Assembly: GCA_037367355.1 (NCBI GenBank)
Contig: JAVSCG010000033.1
Span: 1-20,000, forward strand
DNA from: Neoscytalidium dimidiatum
Taxonomy: Eukaryota; Ascomycota; Dothideomycetes; Botryosphaeriales; Botryosphaeriaceae
DNA: 20,000 nt
Direction: 5' to 3'
Positions 4,070 through 20,000 of this stretch are shown here, in pieces. Numbering within the stretch: position 1 is the stretch's first letter; every line of letters starts with the position of its first letter. The notes under the pieces were generated by a model that saw only the letters and a program-made list of their open reading frames with translations, did no database searches and was not told the origin of the DNA. Both the position numbers and the translations under genes were made by a program.

Positions 4070-6690
4070 CCTAACTCGACTAAATTATTAGATTTTAGTA
4101 AACGAGTAACTATTAAATACGTACTTAATAAGCGTAACTACTTTACGATACTTAGTATAGTATTAAGGCTCTTTTTACTCTAATAAGATTAGTACGGCTC
4201 TTATATACGCTCTAGAGTATACTCTAGTACGGATTCTAGAACGTATATACGTTCTAAAAGAGTAATTTCTATAGTATTATAGTTATTAAGTATATTATAA
4301 TACTCCGTCGCCTATAAGGGCGTTATCTACGTTCTCGTCGCTAACGCTAAGGATTCCTCGCTATAGCTATATCTTTATATATTCCTCTACTTCTATAACG
4401 TCTACTCCTAAGCTTATTCTATTATATATTATAATCCTTTCTATACCGCTAAAGAGTCGTTCGTAATCTACTAATATCGCTAGAGCGCTAAAAAGGCGGA
4501 GCGCGAGCTATAAGAGTATTAGGTATATATTAGTATAAGCTAGCTACTACTAAATAGGGTCCTTTACGCGCCGCTCTTATAGAGTAGTATAATAACGCGT
4601 ATACTCGTTATTAACGGGGCGAGGTTTCTTCGAAGGTGGCTAAACGCGAAGGTATTACTAAAATAGTATAAGAGGCTTCTTTAGAGGCTTCTACTCCTCT
4701 TCTTACTAAATAGCCTCTTTTATACGCGACTCTTATCTAACTCGCGTAACTAAAGCCTTATAAAGTAGCTAGTACTCTATATATTAACTCCTTATCTAAT
4801 TATCGTTAGTATTCTTATTCTAATACGTTAAGGCGTTTATTTTCTAGTCCTTACCTTCTCGACCTAGTCCTTAGTCTATTTTACCTCTAGTAACTCCTAC
4901 TTATATTATAGATAGAGTATAATTACTATTATATAGCCGGGCGTTTTATTAGACTCTTCGTAGTACTTCTTAAGCTTTATATAGCTAATATTAACTACTC
5001 TTCGTATATACTAGTCGTATAGTATCTAATCTTCGCGTAAACGAGCTTCTATTACCTCGAGATATAAGTATAAGTAGTCTAGTACGAGTAATAACTCCTA
5101 GAGGCTTCTATAAGTATTAGTCTTACCGTCGCTCTCGATAAGGCGTATAGCCTCCTTAAAAGGCGTAAGAAGCTCCTTAAAGTACGTAAGTTACTTCTAG
5201 TCGTTATCTATAAGGGCGAACTCGTATAACTTACGCGTTTAATAAATTATAAGGTTAAGGGCGTCTCGTAACTACCGTACGCGTCTAATTATAGCGAGTA
5301 CTACGTTCTAGTAAATCTCGTAGTCCTTAATAAGCGAGTAGTAGAAGACTTCGCCGTTCGTAAGGCGCGCTAGATAAGTCTATTATTTTCTTTTAAATAA
5401 CTTACGCCTCTCTAGATTTAAATTAATCTATATATATATACGGCGTAGCTTACTAAGAGGCCTAAATTACCTCTATAAGGCGTACTCTTAAAGGACTTCT
5501 AAGACGTTAAGCCCTATTTCTTTTAGCCTCTATTTAAGCTCCTTTACTATATTTTTACCCTAAATAAGCGTCTTAGCGACGAGATTAATAATATAGCCGG
5601 CGTAGCGGAGGCGAGTCTCGGTAATATTAAAGCGAAATTTATCTATAAGAACGCGTAGAGTAGTATCGTTATTAGTAGCGTTATTATATATAATATAATC
5701 GAGTCGTATAACTATACTAATACCGTATACTTTTAAGACCTCTATAATTAGCTCTGCCTAGTTCTTACCTATATAACGTCCGATAAGCCTTAGAAGGCCT
5801 AAAGGTACTAAGAATAGCTCTCCTTTAGCGTCTAGAAAATAAGCGTTAATAGTAATAAGGTAAAAGAGCTAGCTAGGCGACGTCTAGCCGTTAAATAAGA
5901 TATAGATTAGTATACTCGCGGAAGTAAGAATATTCTTTATAATGCTCTTTTTTTACTAAAAGAGGTTTAGTAGCTACTTTTTTAGCGTATTCGATAATAT
6001 AGGTAGTATTCCTTATATTATTTTAGTCGAATTAAGGAGTAGAAAGAGCTACTAAAGGAAGTATACCGTTACTTATATAAAGATAACGTTATAGAGGATA
6101 ATCTATCGTATAAAAGCGCTCCTCTAAGTAGCTAGACTAAAAGAGGTAACGAGAGTCGTTAAGCGCCGTAAGGCCTACGGAAGAGGCGTCTACTAAATCC
6201 TCTTATCTTATTTAGTAATACTATACTTCTCTTTTAAGTATTAAATAGTATTCGTAGTCGATTTTAACGTAAAGCGATAATTATATAGATCGCGGCGGAC
6301 CTCGTCTATATAAGTTAGCTTTATATAAGATAAGAAAGAAGCTTTTATATATAAATTTTATAGAGCTAAGCTTTATTCTTATTCTTTAATAAGCTTTAGT
6401 TATATAGGGCTTATCTATAACGCTAAATCTAAGACCGACGAGCTCTCTAACGCTATAAGAAGCCCGCGCTCTATCTAAAAGAAATACGCCTAGGCTTAAG
6501 AACGTAATCTAGATATTTTATAACTCGCTTATACTCTATAGAGGTAGCTAAGGGGTTCGTAGCGCTAGAAAACGAAGAGTTAAGCGTACTAGAGGCTTCG
6601 TATATAGAACTCTCGTCTTCGCTTATATTAGAATTAGAGGTAACGATTATAGGAGTAAAGTTATTTATAGGCCTCTAAGGCTTATTACTA
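4070..6690. repeat. RIP-saturated repeat, left part of the outer layer
   Basis: About 2.6 kb in which CpA and TpG are almost absent. By eye, only one (at 4637) occurs between 4081 and about 5740, while CpG, CpC and GpC remain common. TA steps dominate and stops fill all frames, so no long reading frame survives. I could not identify the parent element: I see no LTR pair, terminal inverted repeat or diagnostic transposase motif. It is interrupted by the old retroelement at 6690/6691 and appears to resume at 19249, because the direct repeat TTACTA occurs at both junctions. Confidence 0.7.
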
Positions 6691-6921
6691 TAAGGCAGCT
6701 TAAACTAAAAGGATGGTATTACTATTAAGAAGAAATCTAAGTATAAAGAGAAAAAGAAGAGAAGGTAATAGAGAGGTAGGTAGGTAGATATACCTAGCTA
6801 CCTCGGCGCTACTATAACTAAGCCTACGGAATAATATTATTCCGGTTTCTACCTAACCTGCGGAGCTACTAGGTACTTACCTAGCGGCCTAATCTACTAT
6901 CTAAGCCTTAAGGGCCTAATA
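6691..6921 (-). repeat. 3' LTR of the old retroelement
   Basis: 231 bp matching 19018-19248 with about 15 differences, all transitions, as RIP predicts. Both ends are TA (TAAGG... and ...CTAATA), explained if the canonical TG...CA ends were mutated. It contains a short GGTA tandem run (about 6774-6787) and a perfect 18-bp palindrome at 6827-6844. Exact edges are uncertain by a few bases. Confidence 0.8.
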
Positions 6922-6924
6922 CTA

Positions 6925-6940
6925 CCCCCCCCTCCTTTAA
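6925..6940 (-). other. Polypurine tract of the old element
   Basis: On the minus strand this reads TTAAAGGAGGGGGGGG immediately before the 3' LTR. This is the position and composition expected for the plus-strand DNA primer of an LTR retrotransposon. Confidence 0.7.
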
Positions 6941-7887
6941 GCGAGGTTCTCCGAGCTCCGGGAGAAAAAAATCTAGCGGGGGTCCTATCTCGGGATACTA
7001 GGCGTGGTATTCTCTAACCTTATCCGGGGCGTTCTTAAAGTTAGTCTAGAGCTAGAGAGGCGGAGCGGCGTTCTAGTCGTTCTAACCTAGCGTATAGGTA
7101 GCTCTATAGGTGCGGTTTTTAGCCGATCCGCCGTAGCTAACTATCTCTAGTACTTTCTATTCTTCGTATAGCGTGTCTTTATCGTCGTTCTAGATTAGGA
7201 CTACGGGGCCTAGTTCTTATACTTAGCCTAGGTAGGGGTTATCTAGGGCGAGATAAAGCTTCTAAGGATAGAAGATATTAAAGAGATTCTTATTTTATAT
7301 ATATTCTAGAAGCGCGATTTTGTAGGCTTTATTATCGATAACCCGGATAATTTCGTAGGGCCCTATACTCTTAGGTCTAAGGGACTTCGTTTCTCTATTT
7401 AGATTAAAGTGCCTAGCGTCTATAAAGACCTTATCGCTAAGTTTAAAGGCTAGGTAAGGTTATCGGAGCTTATTAGCGTGGCGTTCTTATTCTTCCTAGA
7501 CCTAGTAGAGTTATTCCTAGAGGAACTCCCTTATAGCGTTATAGTGGTCTAAGAGGCGGTCTACTCTAGTAACTTCCGCCGACTAAGGGCTTCCCGTACT
7601 CTTAGATTCTAAACTAGTACGCGGATAGAAGCCGTTATCTACGAAGAAGGGGGAGACGCCGGTAGATACGCTAATATAGGTATTTACTATAAACTCCGCG
7701 TCTAGTAAGAAGTTAACCTAGTTGTCTTAGGCGTAGTTAACGAATTTACGGAGGTACTACTTAAAGGTTTTAACGCTACTCTCGCTTTAGCCGTCTATCT
7801 CTAGGTGGTATATAGTAGATATTTTAATCTTAATACGGTATCTTTCTAGGATTCTTTTATATAGCTGGGAGTTTATAGCGCTTCCTT
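6941..7887 (-). pseudogene. Old element: integrase C-terminal half and tail
   Basis: Reading the minus strand from the junction at 7887, the first residues are GSAINSQLYKRILERYRIKI and then STIYHLEIDG. This lines up with the integrase segment that follows the second catalytic Asp in Ty3/gypsy elements (typically '..RGSxFTSxFW...STAYHPETDG'). The second catalytic Asp itself is not present. Further left the frame dissolves into RIP stops. A segment near 7035-7150 reads as a possible chromodomain-like fold (KVLEIVSY...YRATYT), which I hold only weakly. Confidence 0.65.
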
Positions 7888-8272
7888 TGTTACGCCGGGA
7901 CTCTTTCTGGGGGAGTCGAGGCGCGTCGTCAGGCAGCTTGGGCTTTCTAGGGGCCAATACAGTGGTAGGCAGGGGAGGTTCGTACAATAGTAGGGTAGGA
8001 ATCAATTGACAAGTTGACCACGAGGGTCCTAACTACGATAAATGAGTGTGGTCTATATACATGGAGTGATCGGTACGATCAGTAGTGATCTGTAATGTTA
8101 ACCCACTGATCAGTACTGATCGGTGGTCCGAGCTTTGCTGAGCGAGTGTGCGGTGGTCTGGTGCATCAGTGTCGGTAGGTATTCTGCCGAGTTAGGCCCC
8201 GAGTTGGTCACGTGGGCGGTGAGTAGTCGTAGGGTTTCGTTATCCGCCTTTCTGGGCGACTGTGCCGTAACA
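7888..8272 (-). repeat. 3' LTR of the young chromovirus
   Basis: 385 bp, identical by eye to 14047-14431. It begins TGTTACGCCG and ends GCCGTAACA, giving a 7-bp terminal inverted repeat with TG...CA ends. In transcriptional (minus) orientation it holds a CACGTG (8209-8214), a cluster of five GATC tetramers (about 8068-8131), and a TATATA (8054-8059). Confidence 0.97.
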
Positions 8273-8287
8273 CTATCCCCCCTCTAG
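8273..8287 (-). other. Polypurine tract of the young element
   Basis: On the minus strand TAGAGGGGGGATAG abuts the TG of the 3' LTR, the expected site of second-strand priming in reverse transcription. Confidence 0.75.
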
Positions 8288-8290
8288 GCA

Positions 8291-8307
8291 ACCTTCGGCC
8301 CGAAGGT
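8291..8307. promoter_or_regulatory. Palindrome ACCTTCGG-C-CCGAAGGT upstream of the antisense gene
   Basis: A perfect inverted repeat of 8-bp arms with a one-base spacer, ending four bases before the TATAAA of the plus-strand gene. Its core is CGG-N-CCG, an inverted pair of the CGG triplets bound by many Zn2Cys6 proteins. The palindrome is seen directly; an operator role is inference. Confidence 0.45.
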
Positions 8308-8311
8308 CGAG

Positions 8312-8317
8312 TATAAA
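8312..8317 (+). promoter_or_regulatory. TATA box of the antisense gene
   Basis: TATAAA lies 47 bases upstream of the ATG at 8364 and is followed by a CT-rich stretch (8329-8360) typical of fungal transcription starts. It leaves room for a 5' leader of about 15-20 bases. Confidence 0.5.
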
Positions 8318-8363
8318 GGTAGTTGAGCTCCTCCTTAGTTCCCTTGATTATTTCTCTGCCGTC

Positions 8364-8993
8364 ATGTCCAGTTCCGCTCGTCGACGCGCGCTTCTCGCCC
8401 GTATCCTTCGTAACGGTACTGACGCTCCCAGACGTTGTTCCTTTTGTGTGGAGAGACCTCGTCTTCGTTGTCTTGTGTCGCCGGATTCCAAGAGGTGTTA
8501 CGAGTGTGCCAAGCGAGGCCACCTTTGTTCCTTTCCTTCTGACATGGCTTCCCTATTGAGTTTCGTCGTGTGGATCAACAACGGGACCGGGTGCGGGCTC
8601 AGATTGAGCAGACCCAGCGCGAGATCGAAAGGGATGAGGCCGAGATTCAGCGGTTGCAAGAGGAGGCTCAACGTTTGGTTCGTCGTACCGCCACTTCTCG
8701 GTCAAGGTGATCCGCCTGTTGCGGACACTTTCCTTCCTGGATTCCCGGTCAGGAGTTGTTTGAGCGGGAGTTGGCGGCCATTGAGGCTGAGGAGGCGCAG
8801 GAGGCGCGGGCGGCTCAGGGTCCTTGTTATCTGGTTCAGGCGGTGGTGACGTGGCGGGTTCCGACGGGCTGGTTCCTCGAGAGCACCGGTGGACCAGTTT
8901 CAGGTGTCCTTGACGCCTCCTCCGGGGTTTGCGTCGTGGGAGGATGCTCTGGGTTTGGGCGGTCAGGGTTTCGTCGGTGGTATTCATGGATGA
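8364..8993 (+). pseudogene. Antisense cargo gene: cysteine-cluster and coiled-coil protein
   Basis: Encoded opposite to gag-pol, between the chromodomain and the 3' LTR; about 209 codons if frames are followed across small indels. Order: basic N-terminus (SSSARRRALLARIL); cysteine cluster from CSFC to CAKRGHLC with spacing C-x2-C-x7-C-x8-C-x2-C-x6-C, close to the fungal Zn2Cys6 pattern; a Gln/Glu/Arg-rich coiled coil (about 8558-8707, e.g. RAQIEQTQREIERDEAEIQR); a segment RLLRTLSFLDSR; ELFERELAAIEAEEAQEA (8753-8806); a Gly/Ser linker; and a C-terminus SWEDALGLGGQGFVGGIHG ending in TGA at 8991. Frames change near 8557, 8705, 8748, 8820 and 8889, mostly one-base homopolymer losses. The layout resembles small Cys-cluster/coiled-coil proteins I recall as common in fungal genomes, of unknown function. 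It overlaps the pol 3' end by up to 158 bp. DNA binding is inferred. Confidence 0.65.
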
Positions 8994-10230
8994 GTTCCTC
9001 GCAGTTAAGGTAAGAGATTGGTTCCCATGAGGGTTCCCACGGGTTCCCGGCGGAATCCGCTCCTTCCCATTTGATGAGGTACTTAAATTGACCGTCGATC
9101 CAGTCTCCATCCAAGATTTTCTCTACGTCCCATTCTTTGTCGGCGTCATCGGGGTGTATTTCAAGTTCTGGGTCAGGTTCGGCGTTGCTGTGTGCGGGTT
9201 CAAGTAAAGAGATGTGGAAAACTGGGTGTATACCCACTTGTTCTGGCAATCTGAGTTTAAAGGAAACAGGTGAAAGTTTTTTCTCAATTTGGTAGGGTCC
9301 GATTTTCTTGTGGTCCAATTTGTCGTTCGATCGTGTTGTTTTGATGTTTTTTCTGAGGAGCCAGACTTTATCCCCCTCCTTCAGGGGCGGCGACGCCTGG
9401 CGCCGTCTGTCATGGTACATGGCCATTCGGTATGCGGTGAATTTGATGTCTCGGGCCAGTTCCTGGTGTAGTTCACGTAGCTGGTCTGCTCTGAGCATAG
9501 CTTTTGGGCGAGTACTTCGCAGATCTGGGGTTCTCCGAAGGCAGTAGGGTCGAATCCGTAGTTGGCGTAGAAGGGCGTGGTTTGTGTGGCTTCCGTTGAT
9601 GTGCTGTTGTACGCGTATTGGGCTAATGGTAGGAGTTCGACCCAGTTGTTTTGCCTGTAATTCAGGTAGAATCTTAGGTACTGTTCTAGCGTTTGGTTGG
9701 TTCGTTCCGTTTGTCCATCGGTTTGCGGGTGTGCCGTTGTTGACATCTTGTGTTTAGTTCCTAACTTGTGGACCAAGGTTTGCCAGAACTTAGCTCTGAA
9801 TCGTGGGTCTCGGTCCGTGATTAGTTCCTTGGGCATCCCGTGGTGGGCGAAGATATCTCTGAGGAAGAGGTAGGCGCAGCCTTCTGCTCCGATTTTTTGT
9901 TACAAGGGATGAAGTATGCCCATTTTGTCAGGCGGTCGACAATGACCAGGATGGCGTTGTGTCGTGCTTTAGTCACAGGGTCTACTGAATTTGGCAGGTC
10001 GGTGATAAAATCCATTGTGACCGATTCCCAGGGTTTGGTTGGTGTTGTGATGAGCTGTAGTTGTCCGTATGGTGCATGTCGTGCCACCTTGTTTTTGCGC
10101 ATTCGTCACATTCCTGGATGACTTTCTCTACTACTTTCCTCATTCGGGAAAGTAGAAGTGTCTTGCAAGCCGTTCCAAGGTTCTTGTCATTCCTGGGTGT
10201 CCGTGAACTGCGGACTCGTGGTATTCCTTT
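8836..10230 (-). pseudogene. Young element: integrase with chromodomain
   Basis: Inserts element cDNA into the genome. On the minus strand: zinc-binding HHCC region (VHGHPGMTRTLERLARHF, then CDEC at 10099-10110); core with first Asp in TMDFITDLP, second in LITDRDPRF and Glu in NQTLEQYLR; GPY/F region (KKIGPYQIEKKL, about 9199-9303); and a chromodomain (8965-9135) containing EWDVEKIL, YLIKWEG, NPWEP and ELIHEYHRRNP, with aromatics in the positions used to hold methylated histone tails. The stop of the last frame is at 8836. Frame breaks: near 10145, 10094 (T5), 9887 (GG to G in coding sense) and 9501 (GG to G). Each break has proper integrase sequence on both sides, so the gene is recognisably complete apart from these indels. 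The tail after the chromodomain is Pro/Thr-rich and its natural end is uncertain. Confidence 0.9.
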
Positions 10231-10720
10231 GTCAGCCGTTTGCGCAGAGGTGTGGGTACGTAGATTTTTCCGCGGAATAGTATGTTGCCTCTATGGTCTT
10301 GGACTAGGTCGGGTCGTCATGTTCGGGGTGCCTATTCGTTGAAGCAGTTCTTGGGATAGCGGATCATTGTTATATTTTCCTTGGATGATTTGTTCCCAAG
10401 TGGCGGTGTCATCTTCTTCCTCGTTTACTGCCTCTTCCGTGGTTTCTTCAAGTGTTGGTATGGGTTCCTCGTCCTGCGGTTCCTCTTCGTCCTCCGGCTC
10501 CTGCTCTGGTGTTGGGTTTCGTGGAGGTTCGTCGTCGTCGATGGGGCTCCTAGCCTTATGATGGGTGCCAGTATTCGTTCTTCCCAGGGTGCGTCGGATT
10601 CTTCAATGATTCGGGGCGGTTGGGGCCTAACGTGCCGTCGTCATTTTGTCGTAGTACTGCTGGTGATAGTTCTGGCTTTCCTTCCACGTGGTCGGCTCTG
10701 CGGCTAAGTGCGTCGGCCTT
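10231..10720 (-). pseudogene. Young element: RNase H-integrase linker
   Basis: On the minus strand this reads as the connector between RNase H and integrase, including an acidic stretch rich in Glu/Asp (about 10390-10545) followed by TATWEQIIQGKYNNDPLSQE. It has no catalytic motifs and is expected in gypsy polyproteins. The complementary plus strand gives long Ser/Val/Phe-rich open frames that are shadows of this acidic region. Confidence 0.6.
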
Positions 10721-11125
10721 GCCGTTTCACTTCCCTTGCGGTAGTGGATCTTGAAGTAGAAGGGGGCGAGTTGTTCTGCCCATCGTACTTGTCTTCTGTT
10801 TAACACCTTGGTGGTTGTGAAGTATCCCAGGTTCTTGTGATCCGAGTATACCGTGATTTCGTAGTTAGCTCCTCAAGGTAGTGTCGCCATTCCTTGAACG
10901 CTGTGACGATCGCAAGCAGTTCTTTGTCGTGTATCTCGTAATTGAGCTCGGCGGGTGACATTTTGCGAGAGTAATACGCGATAGGGTGTAATCTTCCCTC
11001 GTCGTCTGGCTGGCTGAGGTAGCGCCAATGGCATAGTCGGATGCGTCAGTTTCGAGGTAGAGTGGCTTGTCAGGATCGAACATGAGGAGTACCGGCGCTT
11101 CTACGAAGGCCCTTGAGTTGATCAA
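10721..11125 (-). pseudogene. Young element: RNase H
   Basis: Degrades the RNA strand during reverse transcription. Motifs on the minus strand: AFVEAPVLLMFDPDKPLYLE followed by [10 protein letters not shown] (first Asp); then [34 protein letters not shown] (Glu), VYSDHKNL (Asp), and near the end KADALSRRAD. Together these form the standard Ty3/gypsy RNase H/tether region. Frame breaks lie near 11112, 11018 (one C lost in coding sense), 10871 (GGG to GG) and 10725 (AAAA to AAA). After each, the expected sequence resumes in a new frame. Confidence 0.88.
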
Positions 11126-12776
11126 ACGCCTCTTGTTGGGGTGCTTCCCAGGTGAAAGGGGTATTTTTCGGGTGAGTCGGATTAGGGGTTCGGCTACATG
11201 CGAGTATCGTTTGATGAATCGTCGGTAGAAGTTGGCAAACCCTAAAAACTTGTACTTCTTTGACGTTCCTTGGTTCTGGCCACTTCAGGATGTCTTCCAC
11301 CTTTTTTGGGTCCATGACTATTTTTCCTGGTTCGATGATAAAGCCTAGGAATTCTACCCTTTGGGCATGGAAGGTACATTTTTCTGGTTTGACGGAGAGG
11401 TTGTATTCGAGTAGTTTCTGGAGGACTTTGGATACATGTTCCTTGTGTTCTTCAAGGGTTTCTGAGTAGATCAGGATGTCGTCGAGGTAGGCTGTGCAGA
11501 ATCGGTCCAGATATTCTCGTAGGACGTGGTTGACAAGGGCTTGGAATGTGGCAGGGGCGTTGGTAAGTCCGAAAGGCATTACCAAGTACTCGTACAAACC
11601 GTATCGAGTTCTGAATGCGGTTTTCCATTCATGTCCTTCCTTGATTCGGATAAGGTGGTACCCATCCCGCAGGTCTAACTTGGTGAAGAATCGTGCCCCG
11701 GAGAGGCGATCCCTTAGTTCATCGATGCGGGGTAGAGGGTAGCGGTCTTTGATGGTAATGTCGTTCAGGGATCGGTAATCCACACAGAGGCGTAACTTGC
11801 CTCCGGGCTTTGGTACGAAGAGGACGGGGAATCCTGCTGAGGATTGAGAGGGTCGGATGTATCCCTTCTTCAGTAGTAAGTCCAAGTGTTCCCTCATTGC
11901 TTGTAACTCCTTTTCCGACATTGGATATAGGGGTCCAAATCGGGGTTCAGTGCCTGGTTTCAAGTTGATCTCGTGGTCCCATGGTCTGTGTTCCGGTAGT
12001 GCGTCTTCGATCTTTTCTCTGAAAATTTCCTTGAACCGGTGGTATTCCTTAGGAACGCCATCAAGGTACTGTTCGTGTATCCTGGTGGGGTCATCTCCTC
12101 CCACGGGTGTCGGGTAGTCTGGTTTTTCTCGTCTGGTGGCACTAATCTGTCGGGTTCTTTCTTTGTTTGTAGTGGTGGGGCGATACCACATCATTCCAAT
12201 TGCTTGCCCCTTCTTTCGGGTCCTTTCCAGCGCAGCTTTCGAAATTAGGCTTACGTGGGTAATCGGTTCGGCTATGGTGCGTGGTTTCCATTCTGGTTCT
12301 TGGTTTCGTTCTCTGGACTTGAGGGTAATTCCTCCATTGTCCCAATCGTATTGTATTTTCCATTTCTTCTGCCAAGGGATGCCGAGAATGACATCATACT
12401 TGGGGATCTTGGTAACGTCTAGACAGATACGTTCCCTGTGGTTTTTGTATTCGAGGGTCAGTTTCGGGGTTTCGATGATTACCTTTCCATCTCCAAAGGA
12501 GCTGGGGGATCCATCAACAGTTCTCAGCTGATATGGTTGGTCCTTTTCTCTGGGTTTTAGGTTGGCTTTTTCTGCAAATCGGTTTGAGACGTAGTTCCCT
12601 TGTGATGCGGAGTCGATGAGGGTGAGCGCTCGGCGTCCATTGATTTTTGTCACGACAACCCAGTGGTTCCCGTATTCTGCGGAGTCTCCTTTGCTTTCTG
12701 GTGGGTGTCCTGTGGTTTTCCGGTCGATGCTGCTATGGTCCTGTGGGGCAGGGGCCTCGCCTGCTGTAGCCCCAGT
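11126..12776 (-). pseudogene. Young element: protease and reverse transcriptase
   Basis: A long open stretch of pol, open from the TGA at 12777-12779. Protease: HWVVVTKINGRRALTLIDSA, with the catalytic Asp codon at 12612-12614; the active-site triplet reads D-S-A rather than D-S/T-G. RT: GFPVLFVPKPGGKLRLCVDY, FTKLDLRDGYH (motif A Asp), YLVMPFGLTNAPATFQ, and AYLDDILIYS with both catalytic Asp codons at 11478-11483, then EFLGFIIEPGKIVMDP. All RT residues needed for polymerisation are present. Near 11244 the frame slips (an FLGFANFYRRFI block lies in another frame) and it slips back near 11166. No ATG marks the start; pol probably begins as a fusion or frameshift product of gag, whose stop is at 12790, but the indels hide the natural arrangement. 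Confidence 0.93.
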
Positions 12777-12789
12777 TCAGTAGGCGTTT

Positions 12790-13991
12790 CTAGTTTTTTG
12801 GGTGGTACCCGCTGATGTTCTTAGCTTCCTGGTGAATGGGGCAGGCTTCGATGCTACAAGTGGACCAGTGGATGGTGTCATGGTTGGGGGTCTCCGGTCG
12901 TCCTTCAGTAGCCGAGGTGGTTTTCTTGTCGTTGGTTCGCTGGTTGCTGGTTCGTTTGTCTGGGCAGTTTCTGCTGATATGTCCGTGCTTTCCACAGTGG
13001 AAGCAAAGACCCTTTCACGCCGTCGCTGTTCTTCCTCCGGCGCCAGCCGAGGTTTCGTCGTTGGTTGGCATCTAAGTCCATGGGGTCCCCCGGGGGTAGG
13101 TTGTTTCGAGGTTGCGCGGTGTTGGCCGAGTATCGGGTTTGGCCTGTCTCTTGTCTGAAATTGAACAGTTGTTGGTCGACTCGGATGGCCGTGTCGATGG
13201 TCTCGCTAAGGTCCTTGGGTAATCCGGTGCGGGCGAATTCGGCCTTCACATTGTGCTTTAGGCCCTTGTAGAAGATGTATTTGAGGATTGGTCGTTCCAA
13301 TTGAGGTAGGAGGCGAGCATGCGGAATTCCGTGACATATTCCGAGACTGATCGGGTTTGTCGGAGGTCCTGAATTCGAAGGGCGGCCTCCTGCTCCTCGT
13401 TCTTGCTACCAAAGGCTTGTCTGATTGCGTCGGCGAAGCGATTGTAGTTGGCGAACAGGCTACTGGTTTCCGTACGTGGGATGGCCGAGCGGAAATCCTT
13501 TCGATAGGGTTCGAACCACCGTGCTGCGTTACCTCGGAGGTAGGTTCCTGCAAAGCGGACCCTTTCCTCATCGTCCTTGAATGATGCTTTGTAGAATTCG
13601 AAGTAATTCTCTAGTTGGGCCAGGAAGTCGTTGAGCTTACGCCGATCCCCATCGTAGGTGTCGGGGGTCTTGATCTTTAGTTTGGTGTTGTGGGGGGTCG
13701 ATTCTGATGTCGCGGGGTGGCTGGGGTGGAGGGCCGCATAGTACGGTTGACAGTAAAGGCTTGTCCTCGAATGAAGTACTCCAGAAGGACTTGGCCGCAG
13801 TCCTCACTGGCGTTCTCTGGTACTCTGGGTCCGTTGATTGCTCGACTCAAGGAGGCTATGCCCGAGGAATATGCTTCCGAAATGAGCAGCCTCATGTTAA
13901 GAGCTGGGTTTCCAGGGATCAAGGGACGGATTGACTGAAGCTGTTCCTCCTCCGTCGGAAGGTTGTTCCTGATTTCGGTCCAGGATGTCAT
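12790..13991 (-). pseudogene. Young element: gag (capsid and nucleocapsid)
   Basis: Structural protein of the virus-like particle. It starts at an ATG at 13991 (MTSWTEIRNNLP...), about 55 bases inside the 5' LTR. An N-terminal segment with SEAYSSGIASLSRAI runs to about 13680. The capsid core follows in another frame (TYDGDRRKLNDFLAQLENYF, then NAARWFEPYRKDF, LRQTRSVSEYVTEFRMLASY). A third frame from about 13303 reads ERPILKYIFYKGLKHNVKAE to DPMDLDANQR, and a final frame carries the zinc knuckle CFHCGKHGHISRNC (12964-13005; C-x2-C-x4-H-x4-C) and ends at TAG 12790-12792. Breaks: about 13680 and 13303 (each a CC to C loss in coding sense) and near 13012. Sequence content is otherwise intact. Confidence 0.88.
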
Positions 13992-14036
13992 GGTTAGTAG
14001 TTTTCAGGGTGGGGTTACCTCCGGTGCCTAAGAAAG

Positions 14037-14044
14037 GTGGTCAA
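14037..14044 (-). other. Candidate self-priming PBS, young element
   Basis: Two bases inside the 5' LTR the minus strand reads TTGACCAC. This is exactly complementary to GTGGTCAA inside the same LTR (minus strand, 14173-14180), about 33-38 bases downstream of TATATA. The usual TGG start of a tRNA-type PBS is absent. This matches the layout of Tf1-type self-priming, where the 5' end of the transcript folds back to prime. Confidence 0.5.
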
Positions 14045-14046
14045 AG

Positions 14047-14431
14047 TGTTACGCCGGGACTCTTTCTGGGGGAGTCGAGGCGCGTCGTCAGGCAGCTTGG
14101 GCTTTCTAGGGGCCAATACAGTGGTAGGCAGGGGAGGTTCGTACAATAGTAGGGTAGGAATCAATTGACAAGTTGACCACGAGGGTCCTAACTACGATAA
14201 ATGAGTGTGGTCTATATACATGGAGTGATCGGTACGATCAGTAGTGATCTGTAATGTTAACCCACTGATCAGTACTGATCGGTGGTCCGAGCTTTGCTGA
14301 GCGAGTGTGCGGTGGTCTGGTGCATCAGTGTCGGTAGGTATTCTGCCGAGTTAGGCCCCGAGTTGGTCACGTGGGCGGTGAGTAGTCGTAGGGTTTCGTT
14401 ATCCGCCTTTCTGGGCGACTGTGCCGTAACA
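14047..14431 (-). repeat. 5' LTR of the young chromovirus
   Basis: 385 bp, identical by eye to 7888-8272. It holds the element promoter (TATATA at 14213-14218 on the minus-strand transcript path), CACGTG at 14368-14373, and the GATC cluster at about 14227-14290. Confidence 0.97.
14213..14218 (-). promoter_or_regulatory. TATA box of the young element
   Basis: On the minus strand CATGTATATAGACC sits mid-LTR, just downstream of the GATC cluster. The proposed priming site lies about 35 bases further on, consistent with a transcription start there. Confidence 0.5.
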
Positions 14432-14900
14432 GGCGGTTAGTTACGACTAGGTAGTACTAGAACGTCTACCCTTTATAGAAGTACGGAGTAAGCTTTTTAG
14501 CGAAGTCTATCGAGATATTAAGCTACTTCTACTAGGAAATCGGTAGAGGTTATAGGAGTCCTTATTTTTATTCCGAGTACGGTTTATAGCGGCGGTAGTA
14601 AAAGTAGTTCTTATAATAGACCGCTATATCGTTACGTATATTAGGCTACTAGTAGTATTCCTTAAGATAGTAATATATAGCCTTATAGCCTAGATAGCCT
14701 AATAGTTAGTTATCGTAGTAGCTCTTAAGAACTTATAGGCGGGTCTCTTTATTATCTAGGACTATAAGGCGATTCTTATAGTATAAGCGATAGTCTAAGA
14801 CCCTAAGGTCGGCTATATTTAGTTTATAGCCGTGCTCTATAAGGTACGTAGATATACGGCGGAGTTTCTTATCTACTACGGCTATAAGGTTCTAGAGGTA
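14432..14900 (-). pseudogene. Old element: integrase N-terminal half
   Basis: RIPped integrase remnant. At the junction the minus strand reads a degraded V-L-V-V-T-D-R-L, equivalent to the ILVIVDRL segment of the young element. The preceding zinc-binding region is recognisable by its alignment with 10060-10340 of the young element. The segment between DRL and RGSA, about 35-40 codons including the second catalytic Asp, is missing from both sides of the younger insertion. Confidence 0.65.
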
Positions 14901-19004: not shown

Positions 19005-19014
19005 TACTTAGATT
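19005..19014 (-). other. Candidate self-priming PBS, old element
   Basis: On the plus strand TACTTAGATT, three bases from the 5' LTR edge, is the exact reverse complement of AATCTAAGTA at 19061-19070 inside that LTR (and 6734-6743 in the other). The geometry is the same as in the young element but the sequence is unrelated. Confidence 0.5.
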
Positions 19015-19017
19015 ATA

Positions 19018-19248
19018 TAAGATAGCTTAAACTAAAAGGATAGTATTACTATTAAGAAGAAATCTAAGTATAAAGAGAAAAAGAAGAGAAGGTAATAGAG
19101 AGGTAGGTAGGTAGATATATCTAGCTACCTCGGCGCTACTATAACTAAGCCTGCGGAATAACGTTATTCCGGTTTCTACTTAACCTACGGAGCCGCTAGA
19201 TACTTACCCGGCGGCCTAATCCACTATCTAAGCCTTAAGGGCCTAATA
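19018..19248 (-). repeat. 5' LTR of the old retroelement
   Basis: 231 bp matching 6691-6921 with transitions only. It contains the palindrome CGGAATAACGTTATTCCG (19154-19171) and a GGTA tandem run. It is followed on the right by TTACTA, also found just before the other LTR. Confidence 0.8.
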
Positions 19249-20000
19249 TTACTATATACTTACTAATAAGAAGCTTACGAGAGCGTAGTAGAGGTAGTAG
19301 GAAAGTCCTTATAAGACTTCTAGACGATAGAGAGAACGTTAAATAGATTATAGCGCGGGTTATTATAGCGGGCTTCCTCTAGGCGCGTAGAACGACGGCT
19401 AGAAGGTATACTAGTAGCGCTAATAGTAGGAGTTACCGCTCGTCTTAAAGTAGAGCGAAGCCGGCGAGATATAATAGGAGTAAAATCTATAGAGAAGGTA
19501 GTATAGAGAGGTACTAATACTACTTCGCTACGGAGGCTTATCTAAGCTTATATACTACTAAAATATAGTATAGAAAGATCTTACGTAAATCGCTTAAAAT
19601 TTAAAAATTCTACTAAAACGCGTTAGAAGACTTAGAAAGATTTCGTAAGAATATAAAGAATTAACTAAGTCGCTAAAGAATATAGAAATTACGCTATATT
19701 ATTATATATTCGAGGTTATCTTATAGAGGAGTAAGGGTTATAAGATTTAGCGAGGAGGTACGGCGAGGAGTAAGATACTAGGCACGTTAGATACGCTAAG
19801 CCTAATTTAGTAAATACTAGACTACTTATAGCCGTACTAGCCTAGAGTAGATACGCTAAAGCTTAATACTATAAAATATATCGTAAACTCTCTAGGCCCC
19901 TTTCCTACGACTCTTATCTCTTATCCTATTTTTAAGGTACGTAGGGACGTTTAATATATTCCTATAGTAAATTCTTATATCTTTTACGCGTACGCGACGC
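19249..20000. repeat. RIP-saturated repeat, right part of the outer layer
   Basis: Same extreme CA/TG depletion as 4070-6690; no surviving frame and no identifiable domain. It is most simply the continuation of that repeat beyond the old retroelement, and runs off the window. Confidence 0.6.

Follow-up and report, generated by a model that had tools for sequence, protein, structure and literature searches.

The DNA analysed here (the window, 20,000 nucleotides) comprises positions 1 to 20,000 of contig JAVSCG010000033.1 from the ascomycete Neoscytalidium dimidiatum (assembly GCA_037367355.1), and it holds a young minus-strand chromovirus, a long terminal repeat (LTR) retrotransposon at 7888-14431, which is nested inside an older one. 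Our subject is a plus-strand gene of the young element, which lies antisense to gag-pol between pol and the 3' LTR (Table 1). A first-pass annotation of the sequence had described this coding path with an ATG, a characteristic cysteine spacing, a stop, and an upstream TATAAA, and all of these are present: the frame opens with the ATG at 8364, its stop ends at 8993, and the motif C-x2-C-x7-C-x8-C-x2-C-x6-C is encoded within codons 1-61. The coordinates also confirm the convergence on the 3' end of pol, with a 158-bp overlap in which the minus-strand pol frame ends at 8836 and the final codons of the chromodomain match are reached. In the window copy the frame is broken, and the best protein matches come in pieces, chiefly 8364-8564, 8546-8824, and 8880-8990. 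The assignment of the young element to the chromoviruses is based on reverse transcriptase (PF00078) and chromodomain (PF00385) matches above cut-off between its pair of LTRs, with the integrase core matched weakly. The young element has no bias of repeat-induced point mutation (RIP; TA/AT 0.85), whereas the rest of the window has TA/AT ratios of 1.57 and 2.33.

Table 1. Features of the antisense gene, of the young element that carries it, and of the surrounding older element (window coordinates)
Feature	Position	Strand	Basis
Antisense accessory gene (type A), indel-broken in the window copy	8364..8993	+	Matches, reading frames
Six-cysteine cluster, predicted Zn2Cys6-like fold	8436..8528	+	Invariant in aligned proteins; models
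Long helix / coiled-coil part, codons 62-155	8546..8824	+	tblastn piece; helix 65-163 in homologue model
C-terminal motif, overlapping pol	8880..8990	+	tblastn piece; common to P0007, P0008, P0010
Convergent overlap of antisense gene and pol 3' end	8836..8993		Coordinates
TATAAA of antisense leader	8312..8317	+	Sequence; 54-55 nt ahead of start in 6/6 RIP-mutated type-A copies examined
17-bp palindrome around CGG-N1-CCG, antisense leader	8291..8307		Distinct young type-A copies; type-B version
Purine-rich tract adjoining 3' LTR (putative polypurine tract)	8273..8284	-	Sequence
3' LTR, young element	7888..8272	-	Identical to 14047-14431 over 385 bp
5' LTR, young element	14047..14431	-	Identical to 7888-8272 over 385 bp
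pol 3' part: SH3-like (PF24626) and chromodomain (PF00385)	8836..9498	-	Domain matches
Integrase core piece	9381..9836	-	Weak, PF00665 E=0.045
Protease and reverse transcriptase	11070..12653	-	PF00078 E=1.4e-40
LTR of older, RIP-mutated outer element	6684..6925	-	Sequence comparison
Second LTR of outer element, 93% identical	19012..19252	-	Sequence comparison

The RIP pattern and the many Zn_clus matches of the genome, together with a Thermoascus homologue described below, mark it as fungal. A search of this genome (43.8 Mb, 40 contigs) for further copies gave 89 candidates. Forty matches were scored, among them that of the window, and each spans the full 630 nt. The 39 copies besides that of the window are 97-99% identical, and two of the 40 are open from end to end as found, coding for 210 and 211 amino acids. 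The scenario raised at the outset against the gene, in which other copies of the family would lack the frame, has thus failed. Homologues outside this genome have 42-94% identity, and all six cysteines are kept in the five that span the N-terminal region and are invariant in 6/6 aligned sequences. These database proteins include P0004-P0006 (52-59%), P0001 (94% in the shared part), and P0009 from Thermoascus aurantiacus (43%), as well as the C-terminal relatives P0007 (60%), P0008 (42%), and P0010 (87%). No relative was met in viral contigs with queries from the N-terminal 61 codons of the window frame, P0009, P0008, and the reverse transcriptase. A second young type of the element (type B, as opposed to type A of the window) has a gene of the same design in the same place. 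The locus counts given here refer to the matches listed and are lower bounds; a gene that has decayed may have escaped, and a locus without a linked chromodomain may have its partner outside the list. The position facing the chromodomain recurs at 71/83 type-A and 22/22 type-B loci (93/105 together), and the antisense gene is present at 91/127 chromodomain loci. Sorted by identity of the chromodomain region to that of the window, carriage of the gene is 37/37 at 80-100%, 42/45 at 60-80%, 6/7 at 50-60%, and 6/12 at 45-50%; from 60% upward the gene is kept at 79/82 loci, and two of the three gene-less ones sit at contig starts. In an older lineage with 40-45% chromodomain identity, the gene was found at 0/26 loci among the matches listed. 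The outer element in the window had likewise been said to lack the gene, and no match to it was found there, the nearest pol match in that element ending short of the chromodomain.

One argument of the first-pass annotation did not hold, namely that coding sense resumes after each small indel and that the protein must therefore have been under recent constraint. When 29 young copies are compared with one open copy, the gene shows 131 gap openings and only 7 substitutions, and gap openings are also found elsewhere in the young copies, with 4.6-6.8 per kb in pol (the odd copy L008 included), 9.6 in the leader, and 0.74 in the LTR. Furthermore, no gap interrupts the 210-codon alignment of any of the RIP-mutated copies compared (6/6). 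As the indels far outnumber the substitutions, also hit pol, and are missing from the gene in these RIP-mutated copies, a frame that resumes past them is no argument for constraint. Per kb, RIP-mutated pairs (n=2) have 55-59 mismatches and 2.7-3.1 gaps, as compared with 0.5-1.0 mismatches and 4.0-6.6 gaps in young pairs drawn from within one type (n=4). Because the older copies carry fewer gaps than the young ones, the small indels probably stem from noise in the assembly of nearly identical repeats, and decay was rejected as the main account. The LTR is far cleaner (0.74 gaps per kb) than the element interior (~5-10, L001-L030), which simple assembly noise does not explain. A seemingly high substitution rate in pol (22-25 per kb) was traced to the single copy L008, whose flank belongs to another lineage.

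Codon constraint was measured in type B; for type A, the comparison of young with RIP-mutated copies holds no information on selection, as 81/81 majority differences are RIP-like. The type-B cluster reads C-x2-C-x7-C-x8-C-x2-C-x7-C and is open through all six cysteines in 1/12 rows (11 distinct copies). Past the cluster follows a stretch of 48 nt with GTAAGT, CTAG, and an in-frame stop, which is 46 nt long in the older B2 copies (L043, L067). Once this insert is taken out, the type-B protein has '...AEFRRLDRARED' where type A has '...IEFRRVDQQRDR' and P0004 has '...AEFRRVDQARDR', which restores the EFRR junction seen in both; retention of the insert breaks the frame. The 5' end of the insert is GTAAGT in 10/11 distinct young type-B loci and ATAAGT, a change in the RIP direction, in 11/11 RIP-mutated or old loci, and the AG at its 3' end is kept in 21/22 distinct type-B loci. 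When a B copy is set against a B2 copy, 11/36 columns of the insert's interior agree, with 19 non-RIP differences, and fixed non-RIP differences between B and B2 amount to 38/205 in exon 1 and 61/330 in exon 2. From these signals we read the insert as a putative spliceosomal intron of the antisense gene, which would survive because the element presumably replicates via its sense RNA.

For the selection test, type B was compared with B2 against a shuffle null, with RIP-direction changes removed, and for exon 2 in all six frames. Synonymous changes make up 20/38 in exon 1 (null 8.9, reached in 0/5000 shuffles), 42/61 in codons 1-110 of exon 2 (null 19.3, 0/5000), and 14/22 in codons 140-180 (null 6.7, 11/20000). 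Among the remaining five frames, the open pol frame facing exon 2 has 6/61 (null 14.3), and another gives a high count (37, null 22.2) but is interrupted by three stops in the young copy. The excess of synonymous changes is thus on the side of the antisense protein, which was kept, rather than the pol tail. An alternative would be that the antisense RNA matters, by pairing with the sense RNA or by feeding small-RNA silencing, and that the frame is incidental. The convergent overlap would indeed yield double-stranded RNA, and the same idea was put forward for plant aORF-3R genes in an excerpted account (PMC7264820), but codon-level constraint in both type-B exons and a frame kept across a diverged intron make this account very unlikely. 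Still less credence, close to none, is due to the idea that the frame is open by chance, across from a pol tail that is conserved. In type B the pol-strand frame does stay open for ~250 codons through exon 2 in 3/5 copies examined (L031-L033), yet precisely this frame is the unconserved one, so that the six-frame test refutes the chance account for type B; in type A, codons 1-157 lie outside the pol frame, since that frame stops at 8836 in the window. Taken together, the full-length matches, the homologues, and the type-B codon constraint make it nearly certain that the coding path is a real gene and, in type B, under selection at the protein level.

Gal4-type Zn2Cys6 clusters follow the pattern C-x2-C-x6-C ... 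C-x2-C-x6-8-C. Structure models of the cluster point to a similar fold: with the first model, a structural re-examination of the top Foldseek chains listed Zn2Cys6 domains in 9/10 rows, albeit with weak scores, and the cluster alone superposed at 1.4-1.8 Å over 36-37 residues in four rows. With the second model, 6/6 rows were Zn2Cys6 domains, again with weak scores, at 2.0-4.2 Å over 36-41 residues, and Foldseek with a 61-residue model gave no match at E up to 10. The six-cysteine domain is therefore predicted, from weakly scoring matches, to fold like a Gal4-type cluster that is followed by a long helix. The protein resembles HAP1, GAL4, PPR1, LEU3, and PUT3 in the order of its six cysteines, in the succession of cluster and helix, and in the predicted superposition; unlike these factors, it has x7 instead of x6 between cysteines 2 and 3, lacks a listed Zn_clus match, is only ~210 residues long, and is borne by an element. 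In sequence searches, Pfam PF00172 (Zn_clus) did not appear among the matches of P0003 at E up to 10, or among those of type-B exon 1 and the cluster-bearing homologues P0004, P0006, and P0009 at E up to 5; most weak matches are lost to the HMMER filters in such searches. Matches in NCBIfam were far below cut-off, and sequence searches of the PDB gave weak matches only, many of them to coiled coils. Type-B exon 1 matched DUF3716 (PF12511) below the threshold, with 16.1 bits against a gathering cut-off of 22 (E=0.011).

These models, and the weak match to DUF3716, bear on the origin of the cluster, which may descend from a captured host gene of the zinc-cluster or DUF3716 type, as the first-pass annotation had considered. 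In the own genome, two DUF3716 matches below the cut-off of 22 were listed (20.3 and 15.5 bits), one in a 448-codon open host frame (G000:C4:927650-927802) and the other in a type-B antisense gene, and the host frame offers a weak hint at where the cysteine cluster came from. No clear host paralogue appeared among the own-genome matches listed for P0003, P0004, and P0008, and two very weak matches (L046, L047) gave none on re-comparison. Twelve gene loci have no linked chromodomain match, but the five inspected (L008, L036, L039, L040, L043) lie in or beside element pieces, and the missing Zn_clus match also speaks against a captured gene of this kind. We thus regard host capture as quite possible but on balance doubtful, and it would be compatible with a regulatory function of the present-day protein.

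What such a regulator might act on is suggested by the antisense leader. Between the purine tract and the ATG, type A has the palindrome ACCTTCGG-C-CCGAAGGT (29/30 distinct copies), and type B has AGCTTTCGG-C-CCGAAAGCT, which is complete in 12/22 copies and has been altered in the remainder by indels or RIP-like changes. Two paired, compensatory differences separate the two versions and leave the symmetry intact, a TATA-like box follows in both types, and in the young element the leader palindrome is unique (arms of at least 8, spacer 0-3). Its CGG-N1-CCG core is a suggestive candidate binding site, and the TATA box, the leader, and the splice-like signals are consistent with a promoter of the antisense gene's own.

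The comparison of the two types provides a further clue. Their gag-pol is 98.2% identical, with 6.9 substitutions per kb counted in a single A-B pair, and from ~8904 onward the C-terminal part of the gene, with its last ~30 codons, also belongs to the DNA common to both. From ~8904 to ~8060, a stretch with most of the gene, the leader, and part of the LTR, no A-B alignment exceeds 60 nt, a 32-nt match beside the purine tract being the exception. Within the 3' LTR, we took the differing part (~8060-8272) as the unique 3' region (U3) and the common part (7888-8060; 96% alike) as R-U5. The gene is inherited together with U3: among 50 loci, U3A occurs with type A at 29/30 and U3B with type B at 18/20, and crossed combinations occur at 0. 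The junctions of this exchange would fit template switching during reverse transcription. U3B (L033 4266-4477) has the everted repeat ACCGCGGT twice, as CCG-N0-CGG, unlike the TCGG-Nx-CCGA pairs of U3A.

As the gene changes with U3 and the integrase/chromodomain DNA stays constant, U3 rather than integrase appears to be the partner of the protein. We lean toward a self-encoded, dimeric, sequence-specific DNA-binding regulator of the element's own transcription, and infer as follows how the gene would be transcribed and spliced, how its product would bind zinc, dimerize, and find its DNA targets, and how it would regulate the element. Transcription would start just inside the 3' LTR, probably from an own promoter beside the polypurine tract, and would run against pol. 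The product of ~210 residues would combine a Zn2Cys6-like DNA-binding domain with a long, probably dimerizing helix and a tail encoded in the overlap with pol, and the dimer would bind palindromes of the CGG type, both beside the TATA box of its own leader and in U3. Sense transcription would thereby be tuned through the U3 promoter, with an effect of either sign. One observation weighs against this reading and slightly lowers our confidence in it, as an exchange junction falls inside the gene. It is also conceivable, though unlikely, that the protein is a real accessory factor of another kind, such as a nucleic-acid or chromatin partner of integrase and chromodomain, a nuclear-import helper, or an anti-silencing factor. 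Small zinc and coiled-coil proteins have many roles, the overlap of the C-terminal part with pol extends to the chromodomain, and most gene loci listed (93/105) sit against a chromodomain. However, the cluster models match DNA-binding Zn2Cys6 domains almost exclusively, though weakly, and most of the gene tracks the U3 type while the integrase/chromodomain DNA stays 98% alike. With regard to the interpretation in the first-pass annotation, the conserved, element-borne antisense protein gene with a zinc-cluster-like and a helical part has stood; for a role in host silencing we found no evidence, and its proposal of a captured host gene met no close paralogue and is left with the weak DUF3716-like lead.

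If the regulator reading is correct, the exchange would further suggest, by analogy with the immunity region of lambdoid phages, a transferable self-regulation cassette, made up of a spliced antisense zinc-cluster regulator, its own promoter with the palindrome, and the U3 under its control. Template switching would carry this cassette as a single block from one gag-pol backbone to another. Of its junctions, one would lie near the U3/R border, the site of first-strand transfer, and the other immediately past the chromodomain, inside the final ~30 codons of the gene. We consider this extension tentative and somewhat unlikely; if it is true, the cassettes would sort the elements of one genome into groups according to whether they cross-regulate each other.

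The logic of such a gene has a parallel in HBZ of human T-cell leukaemia virus type 1 (HTLV-1), likewise a gene of an LTR element, which lies in antisense orientation at its 3' end, is spliced, codes for a dimerizing basic leucine zipper (bZIP) helix, and regulates sense transcription. The antisense gene described here would be analogous in being spliced, in its 3'-end position, in its dimerizing helix, and in its effect on sense transcription, with a zinc cluster in place of the bZIP domain. Among retrotransposons, Boty-like Ty3/gypsy elements of Botrytis cinerea have the gene brtn antisense between pol and the 3' LTR, according to excerpted accounts (PMC7264820, PMC8365987, PMC4227169), and the Boty pol has a chromodomain (PMC4227169). 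Both are thus fungal gypsy elements with a chromodomain pol and an extra antisense gene in this position, but the excerpted descriptions of brtn, on which alone the comparison is based, are without a zinc cluster, an intron, a promoter palindrome, or a U3-linked exchange. In plants, the excerpts describe antisense aORF-3R genes (Grande gene23, RIRE2, Retand, PvRetro13) that are found in most copies of their families and for which a regulatory role was proposed (PMC7264820, PMC11963269). The gene of N. dimidiatum agrees with them in position, orientation, and presence in most family copies. It differs in host and lineage, and the TRP28 domain (PF04195), which most Retand clusters have according to these excerpts, is not among the matches listed for P0003. 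Other fungal Gypsy elements with a chromodomain were drawn with an additional open reading frame of unknown function in an excerpted source (PMC2864245), and are similar in having an extra frame, as far as a comparison by description goes. Our literature search found no report of a Zn2Cys6 protein encoded antisense in an LTR retrotransposon, nor of a comparable spliced antisense gene, nor any on DUF3716, from which we claim no wider absence. Antisense genes of LTR elements are therefore a known kind, and set against the excerpted descriptions, it is the zinc-cluster-like fold, the putative intron, the palindrome, and the exchange together with U3 that have no counterpart there. Such 3'-end genes have been noted for years, with their function described as unknown in the account excerpted (PMC7264820), and for one of them there is now codon-level selection, a splice-like structure, a predicted DNA-binding fold, and a candidate promoter site. 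Moreover, nature has replaced most of the gene along with U3 at constant gag-pol, and one small domain and two short pieces of DNA would now suffice for a direct test of whether such genes regulate their own element.

Three observations on the surroundings may be added. The young element is flanked by TCCTT (7883-7887) and GGCGG (14432-14436) and thus has no target-site duplication, despite its identical LTRs. The LTRs of the outer element (6827-6844 and 19154-19171), although the antisense gene is unmatched there, contain an 18-bp palindrome, CGGAATAA..TTATTCCG, which corresponds to CGG-N12-CCG. Finally, many small contigs of the assembly (C18, C21, C31-C33, C38, and others) have a length of exactly 20,000, 40,000, 60,000, or 80,000 bases, as if they had been cut.
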